Assembly: GCA_025980465.1 (NCBI GenBank)
Contig: JAICXJ010000008.1
Coordinates: 1 to 64,000 of the forward strand
Direction of reading: 5' to 3'
Source: Frankiales bacterium
Lineage (GTDB): Bacteria > Actinomycetota > Actinomycetes > JAFAQI01
Length of the DNA stretch: 64,000 nt
Position numbers and translations under genes: made by a program. Below the pieces are notes generated by a model. It had not been told where the DNA came from and ran no database searches. It worked only from the letters and a program-made list of their open reading frames with translations. This document shows positions 16,552 to 21,872 of this stretch, one piece after another (position 1 is the stretch's first letter; the number at the start of each line of letters is the position of its first letter).

Positions 16552-18816
16552 ATGACCGCCGTTTTCGACCTGCCATCCGAGCCCCCGGACCGCCCATCCG
16601 AGCCGGAACAGCGGCGTGCCCGGATCGAGCCGGAGAGCCTTCTCGAGGGCCTGAATCCGGAGCAGCGCAAGGCCGTTGTCCATGAGGGCGGACCGCTGCT
16701 GATCGTTGCCGGCGCCGGCTCGGGCAAGACCCGCGTGCTGACCCACCGCATCGCCTGGCTGCTGGCCGAGCGCAACGTCCAGCCGGGGCAGATCCTCGCC
16801 ATCACATTCACCAACAAGGCGGCGGGAGAGATGAAAGACCGAGTCGCCAGGCTGGTCGGCGGCCGCGCTCGGGTGATGTGGGTGTCGACGTTTCACTCCG
16901 CCTGCGTGCGGATCTTGCGCGCCGAGGGCAGCCGGCTCGGATTCAAAAGCACCTTCTCGATCTACGACGCCGACGACTCCCGTCGGTTGATGACGAGCGT
17001 GTGTCGCGACCTTGACCTTGATCCGAAGCGATTCCCGGCTCGCTCGATCAGCACTCAGGTCAGCAACATGAAGAACGAGCTGATCGACTACGAGGACGCC
17101 AAGGCCCGGGCGACCAACCACATCGAGAAGCAGGTCGCGGAGTGCTACGCGCGCTACCAGGACCGACTGCTGCGAGCCAACGCTCTCGACTTCGACGACC
17201 TGATCATGATGACCGTCGCGCTGTTGCAGCTCTTCCCTGACGTTGCGGAGCATTACCGCCGCCGGTTCCGCCATGTCCTCGTCGACGAGTACCAGGACAC
17301 CAATCACGCGCAGTACGTTCTGGTGCGCGAGCTCGTCGGATCGGGTGACGATGCGGCCGAGCTGTGCGTCGTCGGGGACGCGGATCAGTCGGTCTACGCC
17401 TTCCGCGGAGCGACGATTCGCAACATCCTCCAGTTCGAGGAGGACTATCCGAACGCCGCAACCCTCCTGCTCGAACAGAACTACCGCTCGACGCAGAACA
17501 TCCTCACCGCCGCAAATGCGGTCATCGCCCGCAACCCCGGGCGGAAACCGAAGCGGCTGTGGTCAGACGCCGGCGAGGGCGACAAGCTCGTTGGATACGT
17601 CGCTGACAACGAGCACGACGAGGCGGCGTGGGTTGCCGGCGAGATCGACAAGCTGAGCGACGAGCACGGGATCCGGCCCTGCGATGTCGCCGTGTTCTAC
17701 CGGACGAACGCCCAGAGCCGGGTTTTCGAGGAGGTCTTCATCCGGGTCGGCTTGCCGTACAAGGTCGTTGGCGGGGTTCGGTTCTACGAACGGCGCGAGG
17801 TTCGCGACGCCTTGGCCTACCTGCGGGCGATCAACAATCCCGACGACACGGTCTCGTTGCGGCGGATCCTCAACGTGCCCAAGCGCGGCATCGGAGAGCG
17901 CGCCGAAGCCGCGATCGAGACCGTTGCGGAGCGGGAGCGAATCACCTTCTTCGAGGCCCTGCACCGCGCCGAGGAGGCCGCGCTCGTGTCGCGCTCACTC
18001 AACGCCGTGCAAGGGTTCGTGACGCTGTTCGACGCCATCGCGGACCTTCCTGACGCCTCACCCGGCGACATCCTCGAGGCCGTCCTCGACCAGACCGGTT
18101 ACATCGAGGAGCTGCGGGCCAGCGCCGATCCGCAGGACGAAGGGCGGGTCGAGACCCTCGAGGAGCTGGTGTCGGTCGCGCGTGAGTTCGAGCAAAGCCG
18201 GCCCGAGGGGACCCTCGCCGACTTCCTCGAGCAGGTGGCGCTGGTGGCGGACGCGGATCAGGTCCCGTCCGACGATGGGTCGGACGGCGTGGTCACCTTG
18301 ATGACCCTGCATACCGCAAAAGGCCTGGAGTTCCCGGTCGTGTTCCTCACCGGCCTCGAGGACGGTGTCTTTCCGCACATGCGGTCTATGGGCGATGCCA
18401 AGGAGCTCGAGGAGGAGCGACGCCTCGCCTACGTCGGCATCACCCGGGCCGAGAAGCGGCTGTACCTGTCGCGGGCGAATGTCCGGACTGCATGGGGGTC
18501 GCCGGAGTTCAACCCGCCGTCCCGGTTCCTCGACGACGTCAGCCCGGATCTCATCGAATGGCAGGGCGTCGCTGCGGTCAGCCCGTCGCAGGCCGCGATC
18601 ACCAGAGCGAACCGCGCCGGTCGCAGCGCCGGTGTCGGCCTGCGCGCTGTGCCGTCGCTCGCGCCTGGTGACCGGGTGACCCATGACGCGTTCGGCATGG
18701 GCACTGTCGTTGCCGTCCGCGGGAGTGAGGCCTCAGCCGAGGCCGAGGTCGATTTCGGCGAGCAGGTCGGCCGCAAGCGGCTGCTTCTGCGCTACGCGCC
18801 ACTCGTGAAGCTCTAG
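16552..18816 (+). CDS. pcrA: ATP-dependent DNA helicase UvrD/PcrA
   Basis: A 754-residue superfamily 1A helicase that unwinds DNA 3' to 5' in nucleotide excision repair and other processes. Walker A is AGAGSGKTRVLTHR (about residues 53-66). Further motifs are ITFTNKAAGEM (Ia), VDEYQDTNHAQY (II), VVGDADQSVYAFRGA (III), LEQNYRSTQNIL (IV), VTLMTLHTAKGLEFPVVF (V) and RRLAYVGITRAEKRLYL (VI). The C-terminus GDRVTHDAFGMGTVVAV is the Tudor-like module that contacts RNA polymerase in PcrA. Length fits. In mycobacteria uvrD1 is also near sucCD, as here. Confidence 0.97.
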   Translation: MTAVFDLPSEPPDRPSEPEQRRARIEPESLLEGLNPEQRKAVVHEGGPLLIVAGAGSGKTRVLTHRIAWLLAERNVQPGQILAITFTNKAAGEMKDRVARLVGGRARVMWVSTFHSACVRILRAEGSRLGFKSTFSIYDADDSRRLMTSVCRDLDLDPKRFPARSISTQVSNMKNELIDYEDAKARATNHIEKQVAECYARYQDRLLRANALDFDDLIMMTVALLQLFPDVAEHYRRRFRHVLVDEYQDTNHAQYVLVRELVGSGDDAAELCVVGDADQSVYAFRGATIRNILQFEEDYPNAATLLLEQNYRSTQNILTAANAVIARNPGRKPKRLWSDAGEGDKLVGYVADNEHDEAAWVAGEIDKLSDEHGIRPCDVAVFYRTNAQSRVFEEVFIRVGLPYKVVGGVRFYERREVRDALAYLRAINNPDDTVSLRRILNVPKRGIGERAEAAIETVAERERITFFEALHRAEEAALVSRSLNAVQGFVTLFDAIADLPDASPGDILEAVLDQTGYIEELRASADPQDEGRVETLEELVSVAREFEQSRPEGTLADFLEQVALVADADQVPSDDGSDGVVTLMTLHTAKGLEFPVVFLTGLEDGVFPHMRSMGDAKELEEERRLAYVGITRAEKRLYLSRANVRTAWGSPEFNPPSRFLDDVSPDLIEWQGVAAVSPSQAAITRANRAGRSAGVGLRAVPSLAPGDRVTHDAFGMGTVVAVRGSEASAEAEVDFGEQVGRKRLLLRYAPLVKL

Positions 18817-18943
18817 TCGCTCTGAGCCGTTGCTGAACGCCTTCTCAGGTTGCCGCCATCCCGCCGGTTAGGCTGGAAATTCAGCGCACAAGTAACGGTG
18901 CCGCACGCCCGCCGTGCCGCACGAACAAGAGGAAAGGCTTGTC

Positions 18944-19813
18944 GTGGGACGCGAGACTAACAGGCAGCGCCGGGAGCGGCAGGCTGCGACGGCTCGGGAG
19001 AAGGCGGCGGCAGCCCGCTCGGTCGCTCGCCGTCAGGAGCAGCGCCGGCGTGCGATGGCGGTATTGAGCACGGTCCTGGTGATTGCGGCCGTCGGCGCGA
19101 TCGTCGCTGTCATCGCGATCACCTCCAGCGGCAAGAGCGGCAGCACCGCTCGGCTCAGCGCGACGCCGAGCGTGGTGAACGAGGTCACCTCGGTCAGCCC
19201 GGCGTCGCTGGCATCGGTCGGCCAGGGTTCGGCCCAGTTGCTGGCGAAGCCGATCACGGATCCGCCGCTGACCCAGAACGGAAAGCCCGAGCTCCTCTAC
19301 ATCGGCGGCGAGTTCTGTCCGTTCTGCGCGGCCGAGAGGTGGTCGCTGGTTCAGGCGCTGTCGCGGTTCGGCACGTTCTCCAACCTCAAGGAGATCCGCT
19401 CCGCTCTCACCGACGGCAACATCGCGACGTTCTCGTTCTACAAGGCGTCGTACCAGAGCAAGTACCTGTCCTTCGTCGCGGTTGAGAACGAGGATCGTGA
19501 CCGCAAGCAGCTCGAGCCGCTCACCACCGCCGAGGCGAAGATCTTCACGAAGTACACGACGGGCTTCCCGTTCCTCGACTTCGGCGGTAAGTACGTGCAG
19601 CTGAACTCCGGCTACAGTCCCAACGACATCTCCGGCCTCAACCAGAAGCAGATCGCCGCCGACCTGGCCGACCCGACGAGCAAGGTTGGCAAGGACATTC
19701 TCGGCGAGGCGAACGTGGTGACGGCGATGCTGTGCAAGCTGACGAACAACCGGCCGGCGTCGGTGTGCCACGCGGTCGACATCACTTCGATCCAGTCCCA
19801 CCTCAGTGCCTGA
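18944..19813 (+). CDS. DUF929-family membrane thioredoxin-like protein A (CPFC)
   Basis: A 289-residue protein with a basic N-terminus, one membrane helix at about residues 39-60 and an extracytoplasmic domain of the DUF929 family. The motif [13 protein letters not shown] has Cys125 and Cys128 in a CxxC arrangement typical of thioredoxin-like folds, and two more Cys lie near the C-terminus. I use GTG 18944, preceded by GAGGAAAGG, because this start aligns with the paralogue at 20285. The gene overlaps the VKOR gene by 8 bases. The context suggests a DsbA-like thiol oxidase recycled by VKOR, although DUF929 has no established activity. Confidence 0.85.
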   Translation: MGRETNRQRRERQAATAREKAAAARSVARRQEQRRRAMAVLSTVLVIAAVGAIVAVIAITSSGKSGSTARLSATPSVVNEVTSVSPASLASVGQGSAQLLAKPITDPPLTQNGKPELLYIGGEFCPFCAAERWSLVQALSRFGTFSNLKEIRSALTDGNIATFSFYKASYQSKYLSFVAVENEDRDRKQLEPLTTAEAKIFTKYTTGFPFLDFGGKYVQLNSGYSPNDISGLNQKQIAADLADPTSKVGKDILGEANVVTAMLCKLTNNRPASVCHAVDITSIQSHLSA

Positions 19814-20273
19814 CCAGCCGCCGCCGCAGCGCTGCGTCCGCTGGGCCTGGCCGATCACCCTTCCGCTCGCTCTGCTCGGGCTGGCCGACTCGATCTATCT
19901 GACCGTCGCCCACTTCGACACCAAGGTGGTGTTGGCGTGCTCCGCGACCAGCCACATCAACTGCGAGAAGGTCACTCAGAGCGCGCAGTCGGAGATCTTC
20001 GGCCACATCCCGGTCTCACTCATCGGCGCCATCTACTTCCTCATTGGGGTCGCGATCTGCACGCCATGGGCGTGGAAGCGGGGCAACCTGCTGCTCGACC
20101 GGATCCGGCTCGCCGGCGTCACAGTGGGGATGGGAATGGTGGTCTACCTCGTCTCGGTCGAGGCGCATCTCCACGCGATCTGCCTGTACTGCACCGGCAT
20201 TCACGTCATCACGTTCCTCCTGTTCATCACCATCCTCGCGGCGTACCTGTTGCGACCGCTCGACGCTGACTGA
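19806..20273 (+). CDS. Vitamin K epoxide reductase family protein (DsbB-like)
   Basis: A 155-residue integral membrane protein of the VKOR family, with about four helices. It has the four redox-active cysteines expected: Cys45 and Cys53 in the periplasmic loop (CSATSHINC) and the quinone-proximal CLYC pair, Cys126 and Cys129. Bacterial VKORs oxidise a thioredoxin-like partner and pass electrons to quinone, replacing DsbB in actinobacteria. It has no fused thioredoxin domain, so the DUF929 proteins encoded on either side are the obvious partners. GTG 19806 overlaps the upstream stop by 8 bases. Confidence 0.92.
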
Positions 20274-20284
20274 GGCGGCCCGAC

Positions 20285-21151
20285 ATGGCACGTGAGACCA
20301 ACAAGTCGCGGCGGCAGGCCCAGGCACAGTCCGCGCGAGAGAAGGCCGCGGCGGCGCGCGTAGCGCAGCAGCGGGCGGACCAGCGCCGCAGGGCCGTCGT
20401 CATCATCAGCTCGGTGGTCGCGCTCGCCCTGATCGGCGTGATCATCGCGGTCGCCGCGGTGAATTCGAAGAACTCCAAGACGCCGGAGCGCAAGACGACG
20501 GCATCCCCCGCTCTGGTCAACCAGATCACCTCGGTGCCGAGCGCGACCCTCGCCTCGGTCGGCAAAGGTGGGGCCCTCGGCCACCTCCGGCGGGTGTCGG
20601 ACACCCCGCTGACCGTCAACGGCAAGCCGGGCGTCCTCTATATCGGGGGTGAGTTCTGCCCGTTCTGCGCCGGCGAGCGCTGGGCGCTGATCCAGGCGTT
20701 GTCGCGGTTCGGGTCGTTCTCCGGCCTGCAACAGATCCGCTCGAGCGAGGACAACTTCCCGACCTTCGACTTCGTCAACTCGACCTACACGAGCAAGTAC
20801 CTGTCCTTCACACCCCGTGAGATCGAGGACGAGAACCACAACCGGCTGCAGACCATGACTTCCGAGCAACAGTCGCTGTTCGCGAAGTACTCCGGCGGCG
20901 GAAACTTCCCGTTCGTCTACATCGGTGGGAAGTACTACTTCTACGGCGCCGACCTCGACGTGACCGTGCTCAACGGTCTGACCTGGCAGCAGGTTGCCTC
21001 CGATCTGAAGGATCCGAGCAGCAAAGTGGCGCAAGCGATCGACGGCGAGGCCAACTACCTCACCGCTGCGTTGTGCACGGTCACCGGCAACAAGCCGGCC
21101 GCCGCCTGTACCTCGACCATCACCGGACTGCAGAGCCAACTTCCGACCTGA
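20285..21151 (+). CDS. DUF929-family membrane thioredoxin-like protein B (CPFC)
   Basis: A 288-residue paralogue of the protein encoded at 18944. It has the same basic N-terminus ([20 protein letters not shown]), one membrane helix at about 37-58, and [13 protein letters not shown] with Cys125 and Cys128 at the same positions. The C-terminal part has two conserved Cys ([16 protein letters not shown]). It follows VKOR by 11 bases and is probably in the same operon. The two copies have diverged considerably in the middle region, so they may have different client proteins. The 3' end overlaps the convergent PAP2 gene by 32 bases. Confidence 0.85.
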
Positions 21152-21872
21152 CCGGCTGGTCCAGGCGAGCGCGCGGCGGTGGGCGGACGAGCAGCCGCCG
21201 TAGCTGGAGACCGATCAGGTAGCCGACCACCGTCAGCGCGGCTCCGGTGATGAGATCGAACGTGTAGTGGTTTCCGGTTGCCAGCACGGTGACGGCGGTC
21301 AGGATCGGATGCAGCGCCTCGAGGCATCGCAACCACCAGCGAGTCGTGATCGCCCACAACGCGACAGCTGTCCACAGTGCCCAGGCCAAATGAAGCGACG
21401 GGACCGCGGCGTAGAGGTTCGCACTTTTCGCCTCGACGGTGTAGGCGAACGGCAACGCCGAGTGCACCGTGTCGTGGATGCCGGTGTGCAGCAGGCGGGG
21501 GGGCGCAACCGGGTAGACCCAGTAGATCGCAAGGCCGATCAGGCTGAGCAGGATCAGTACATTGCGGTGAAAGGTGTAGCCCCGCCCGGCGACCCACAGC
21601 GCGAGAAGTGTGAACGCGACCATGCCGAGATGCATCACGACGTAGTAGCCGGCGAGGACATCAGACAGGGCGTCGTAATGCGACACCCAGTGGTTGAGCG
21701 ATTTGCTCCAATCGAGATGAAGCCGGTGGTCCAGGCCGAGGACGGCGTAGCCGTGTCGGACAGCAGTGGCGACGACATTGCCGTGCAGCGAGCGCACGGC
21801 GTCGTAGGCCCAGGCGAACCCAACGATCAGCAGGGCCTGAATCCACCAGCGTGGCCGATCCATCGACTCCAC
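21120..21872 (-). CDS. PAP2-family membrane phosphatase
   Basis: A 250-residue polytopic protein with about six helices. It carries the bacterial PAP2/inositolphosphotransferase-like pattern: YPVAPPRLL, then [10 protein letters not shown] with the PSxH motif and [14 protein letters not shown] with the second His and Asp. Such proteins dephosphorylate lipid phosphates or transfer phospho-headgroups. The longer N-terminal part and the APPRL motif resemble the Aur1/Ipt1-like subgroup of actinobacteria. Start GTG 21872 is given; ATG at 21863 is also possible. It converges on the DUF929 gene. Confidence 0.88.

Follow-up and report, generated by a model that had tools for sequence, protein, structure and literature searches.

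DUF929 proteins as probable VKOR partners in an extracytoplasmic disulfide-forming system of actinobacteria and archaea

Several of the actinobacteria studied cannot, or can hardly, do without the DsbA/MdbA-VKOR system. In Mycobacterium, the DsbA protein Rv2969c adjoins the VKOR Rv2968c (PMC3792642). DUF929, a domain of unknown function, was assigned to the thioredoxin-like proteins by HHpred in 2010 (PMC3091736). Within the open-access literature, we found neither a link between DUF929 and VKOR nor a function of DUF929 beyond the thioredoxin-like fold. Here, we present the analysis of a locus in a window of 64,000 nt, i.e. the whole stretch of DNA that was analyzed, from a Frankiales bacterium, in which two DUF929 genes flank a VKOR gene. 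From sequence comparisons and structure models we consider it probable, at roughly 0.8, that DUF929 and VKOR together form disulfides, with the CxxC-type DUF929 taking the part of DsbA as a thiol oxidase recharged by VKOR.

The gene order DUF929-A, VKOR, DUF929-B spans positions 18944-21151 of the forward strand. DUF929-A (18944-19813, +) has a GTG start and encodes 289 aa (PF06053, E=1.5e-25; 90.5 bits against a gathering cut-off of 24.6), and a ribosome-binding-like sequence, GAGGAAAGG (18929-18940, +), can be read a few bases 5' of this GTG. The VKOR gene (19806-20273, +), with GTG at 19806, encodes 155 aa (PF07884, E=7.5e-26; 91.3 bits, cut-off 27.5), and DUF929-B (20285-21151, +), the tandem paralogue of DUF929-A, encodes 288 aa (PF06053, E=1.2e-22; 81.0 bits). 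A preliminary description of this DNA had named the three genes a tight operon, which agrees with an overlap of 8 bases between DUF929-A and VKOR and a gap of 11 bases between VKOR and DUF929-B. Sigma-70-like promoters were not found around the operon. The Pfam-assigned neighbors, a PcrA/UvrD helicase gene upstream (16552-18816, +; 127-base gap to DUF929-A) and a convergent gene for a PAP2-superfamily membrane phosphatase downstream (21120-21872, -), the end of which overlaps the 3' end of DUF929-B, are not considered part of the disulfide system.

DUF929-A has a basic N-terminal tail with a net charge of +9, followed by a single transmembrane helix at about residues 41-59; DUF929-B has a tail of net +8 and the same type of anchor. 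Tail and helix together place the DUF929 domain outside the cytoplasm (N-in). Each copy contains exactly four cysteines with identical numbering (125, 128, 264 and 275). The CPFC motif (C125/C128) that had been noted in both copies flanking VKOR is indeed present, as are all four redox cysteines ascribed to VKOR (C45, C53, C126 and C129). The earlier account did not contain the second, almost invariant pair C264/C275, which both DUF929 copies carry. Among VKOR-type DUF929 proteins, the CxxC is invariant in 55/55 non-redundant sequences, as is the putative cis-Pro, equivalent to P209 of DUF929-B (55/55), while C264 is kept in 53/53 and C275 in 51/52. The profiles PF13462 (Thioredoxin_4) and PF01323 (DSBA) match neither DUF929-A nor DUF929-B, and no DUF929 relatives were found in viral contigs. 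The four cysteines of VKOR are invariant in 63/63 relatives; C45/C53 would be the loop pair and C126/C129 the CxxC with a predicted role as quinone-side pair. The protein also has two further, unconserved cysteines and four hydrophobic segments, seen as hydrophobicity peaks, as expected for four transmembrane helices. Its profile matches the Synechococcus VKOR structure 4nv6 with E=1.4e-16. A fused DUF929-VKOR reading frame did not occur among the loci examined.

AlphaFold2 models built with 54 sequences were confident both for full-length DUF929-B (pLDDT 94.0) and for residues 70-289 of DUF929-A (pLDDT 97.1, pTM 0.94), and the thioredoxin-like topology of the two models is in line with the nature first ascribed to these proteins. 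The elements follow the order beta-alpha (with the CxxC at the helix start)-...-alpha-[P209]-beta-beta-alpha, which is that of the thioredoxin core, and P209 lies at the start of strand 210-213 in the DUF929-B model. Beyond this core, the models show a strand-rich insertion (residues 143-181 or so), and the second cysteine pair is borne by helices toward the C-terminus. Foldseek searches with both models returned no solved structure at E<=1e-3, the weak matches being mostly thioredoxin, DsbA and GST folds, and a sequence search of the PDB gave nothing below E=0.046. When DUF929 was compared by profile with VKOR-linked DsbA proteins, only 16 columns aligned, around the CxxC. Judged from the models, DUF929 is a divergent thioredoxin-like protein outside the DsbA family, since it shows the thioredoxin order of elements and was recognized as such by HHpred, yet lacks a good match among solved structures.

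The linkage to VKOR was surveyed in 247 genomes of the same phylum (Actinomycetota), 16 of which contain DUF929 and 64 VKOR. All 16 DUF929-containing genomes, from nine families, possess VKOR (Fisher 9e-11), and in each of them a DUF929 gene immediately precedes VKOR in the same orientation, which excludes chance as the source of the pair. The conserved gene order that had been anticipated holds in this form, for the DUF929-VKOR pair. Of the 48 genomes that have VKOR but are devoid of DUF929, 24 carry a DsbA-type Thioredoxin_4 gene in the same slot, and Thioredoxin_4 and DUF929 were never found in it together in the phylum sample. Furthermore, Thioredoxin_4 is present in only 3/16 genomes with DUF929 (one of them marginal) versus 42/48 VKOR genomes without it (Fisher p=8e-7); collapsed to families, the numbers are 3/9 versus 15/17 (p=0.008). 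Because the slot is shared but never jointly filled and Thioredoxin_4 is rare where DUF929 occurs, DUF929 would stand in for the DsbA/MdbA (Thioredoxin_4) partner at its place in the operon, as a non-orthologous replacement.

In six VKOR-containing genomes of the survey (G011, G082, G130, G147, G168 and G240), no DUF929 or Thioredoxin_4 match reached E<=0.001, and their VKOR partner may belong to yet another family. In addition, an actinomycete MAG (G305) encodes a DUF929 protein with CxxC (L004:5091-5873), and VKOR was not found in its 5.6 Mb; either the MAG is incomplete or another enzyme does the recharging.

The source genome is a draft of 3.45 Mb in 106 contigs with a completeness of 95%. 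Profile searches of its contigs detected only the DUF929 and VKOR copies of the operon and no match to Thioredoxin_4 (PF13462). A protein with a weak DSBA-family match and a CPWA motif (L024:1333-2091, contig C4) was considered as an alternative partner of VKOR and rejected; it has no evident signal sequence or hydrophobic N-terminus and was judged cytoplasmic, and by eye we take it to resemble Rv2466c-type proteins. Since there is no other DUF929 or VKOR, no Thioredoxin_4 and no evident export signal on the DSBA-family protein, the operon appears to be the only evident extracytoplasmic disulfide-generating machinery of the draft genome among the families searched. Cysteine parity was analyzed for proteins with any cysteine in 1.9 Mb of this genome, using simple ad hoc gene and transmembrane calls: with lipobox cysteines removed, 59/85 exported or N-anchored proteins have an even count as compared to 421/915 proteins without transmembrane segments (p=3.7e-5). 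The bias is 50/87 (p=0.043) with lipobox cysteines left in and 22/33 (p=0.067) in the second data set alone. It resembles the share of about 64% reported for M. tuberculosis (PMC12421883) and agrees with an organism that oxidizes its own exported proteins.

Outside the phylum, DUF929 was detected 5' of VKOR in Chloroflexota (Chloroflexi) and at several archaeal loci. In an archaeal sample of 300 genomes around one archaeal genome, VKOR is present in 10/17 genomes with DUF929 versus 60/283 without (p=0.0013). The archaeal DUF929 copies of the lower Pfam score band adjoin VKOR with gaps of 156 bases (G297) and 102 bases (G478), are divergent from it at a distance of about 2.8-3.7 kb in G341, G472, G572 and G595, or lie 50 kb away (G393). 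The CxxC was read directly in G297, G341 and G472, whereas its presence in G478, G572, G595 and G393 is deduced from the score band. Most DUF929 copies retrieved from the archaeal sample are without CxxC, and many high-scoring ones (L226-L255), up to six per genome, have CPxG in its place and no C-terminal cysteine pair; in the loci seen, these are not beside VKOR. We label them Sulfolobales-type, because a Sulfolobus control genome matches DUF929 and the Pfam family is known from this group. They share Pfam membership above the cut-off, the N-terminal anchor and the exported domain with the VKOR-linked subfamily, which, unlike them, retains both the CxxC and the second pair. From the sequences, DUF929 covers two sets, a VKOR-linked subfamily with a dithiol and an expansion with a monothiol.

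The central proposal of the preliminary description was that the operon specifies an extracytoplasmic disulfide system and that DUF929 is the partner of VKOR in it. The observed linkage in 16/16 genomes, the shared slot and exclusion of DsbA, the conservation of the redox residues and the thioredoxin-like topology of the models all speak in its favor, and from them we infer the direction of oxidation, the electron transfer, the use of quinone and the range of clients. The operon would thus encode an oxidative protein-folding system outside the cytoplasm. DUF929, held by one N-terminal helix with its domain outside, would oxidize the thiols of newly exported proteins by its CPFC disulfide, and the reduced CPFC would be recharged by the adjacent VKOR via the loop pair C45/C53, from where electrons would pass to C126/C129 and on to a membrane quinone. 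Several observations run counter to this reading, namely the lack of a solved structure at E<=1e-3, the mere 16 columns aligned with VKOR-linked DsbA proteins, the DUF929 protein of G305 with no VKOR detected, the VKOR occurrence of only 10/17 in the DUF929-containing archaeal genomes, where most copies retrieved are without CxxC, and the partial dependence of the parity signal on the removal of lipobox cysteines. A bolder version, which we regard as speculative and rather improbable, holds that CxxC-bearing DUF929 proteins are an undescribed class of VKOR partners in bacteria and archaea, in which C264/C275 act not as a plain structural disulfide but as a second redox pair relaying electrons between client, CxxC and VKOR. 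C264/C275 are retained together with the CxxC and lost where it becomes CPxG, and this joint loss suggests that the two pairs may depend on each other.

Two other functions have to be weighed against a general thiol oxidase. DUF929 and VKOR could form a dedicated maturation system for one client pathway, e.g. a step of copper or cytochrome assembly, as many extracytoplasmic thioredoxin-like proteins of the TlpA, ResA and Sco types are client-specific. However, no gene other than VKOR is conserved beside DUF929 across distant lineages, so the search for a dedicated client gene next door ended with VKOR as the sole recurrent neighbor. DUF929 moreover stands where the general oxidase DsbA is otherwise encoded, to the exclusion of the latter, and the exported proteome of the source genome is biased to even cysteine counts with no other DsbA or VKOR candidate found, all of which makes a single-client system improbable. 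Still less credit is due to a DUF929 that is not redox-active and serves VKOR as an accessory or assembly factor, or as a sensor merely retaining its cysteines. Dithiol chemistry is not indispensable to the family, as most Sulfolobales-type copies retrieved show by their CPxG and missing C-terminal pair, but the VKOR-linked set has kept the CxxC in every sequence along with the putative cis-Pro, and in the loci seen it is not the CPxG copies that stand next to VKOR.

The two DUF929 copies share 49% identity over the whole length and form sister clades within the family of the source organism (tree support 100/96 for A and 99/94 for B), as results from a single tandem duplication that gave rise to the second copy. 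Within this family, the triad occurs in G000, G247 and G250, whereas G249 and G254 have A and VKOR without B (triad in 3/5 genomes with A), and six of eleven other genomes of the family have no DUF929 match. The three-gene order that had been emphasized is thus real at this locus but reflects a lineage-specific duplication. In Acidimicrobiaceae (L009), the B copy of a triad is unrelated to that of the source genome, so the triad arose twice, independently.

The paralogues might have specialized, with A as the VKOR-recharged oxidase and B as an isomerase or reductase or serving a separate client set. Both copies have stayed intact since the family ancestor, a triad was formed a second time in Acidimicrobiaceae, and the diverged middle on which the idea of separate clients was built does exist, A/B identity falling to 25% at 180-199 and 20% at 220-239. 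These stretches vary throughout the whole group, however, and hardly any position has one fixed residue in the A clade and another in the B clade. G249 and G254 manage with A alone, CPFC and the second cysteine pair are intact in both copies of the window, and there is no adjacent gene for a partner supplying reductant. We consider specialization unlikely, and the earlier claim of two client-facing proteins with separate clients is not supported, given the few fixed differences, the relatives without B and VKOR as the only conserved neighbor. Most likely, the second copy adds capacity or modest specificity, dosage being the simplest reading of the duplication.

The proposed role gives DUF929 a function that can be tested and fills a gap in actinobacteria with VKOR but no recognizable DsbA. 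Because it occupies the gene slot of DsbA beside VKOR, DUF929 is probably the missing tool by which certain actinobacteria and archaea form disulfides in exported proteins. A differently built protein in the DsbA role would alter the annotation of disulfide machinery in genomes, and DUF929 would be an unusual enzyme for the production of disulfide-bonded proteins. In addition, the archaeal switch from CxxC to CPxG, accompanied by disappearance of the second pair, is a natural experiment from which the mechanism might be studied.

Compared with the described systems, Rv2969c-Rv2968c of Mycobacterium and MdbA-VKOR of Actinomyces likewise place a membrane-anchored extracytoplasmic CxxC protein beside VKOR in the same slot, and the electron route would be the same. 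In contrast to Rv2969c and MdbA, the partner of VKOR is here DUF929 and not a Thioredoxin_4/DSBA protein, the likeness being limited to the 16 columns at the CxxC, and it differs by its inserted strand-rich segment and its conserved C-terminal cysteine pair. In the VKOR-thioredoxin fusion of Synechococcus (PDB 3kp9, 4nv2/4nv5/4nv6), the VKOR domain is homologous to the VKOR described here, and a thioredoxin-like partner delivers electrons to it, as proposed for DUF929; the Synechococcus partner is fused to VKOR, whereas those of this operon are separate, anchored and of a different family.
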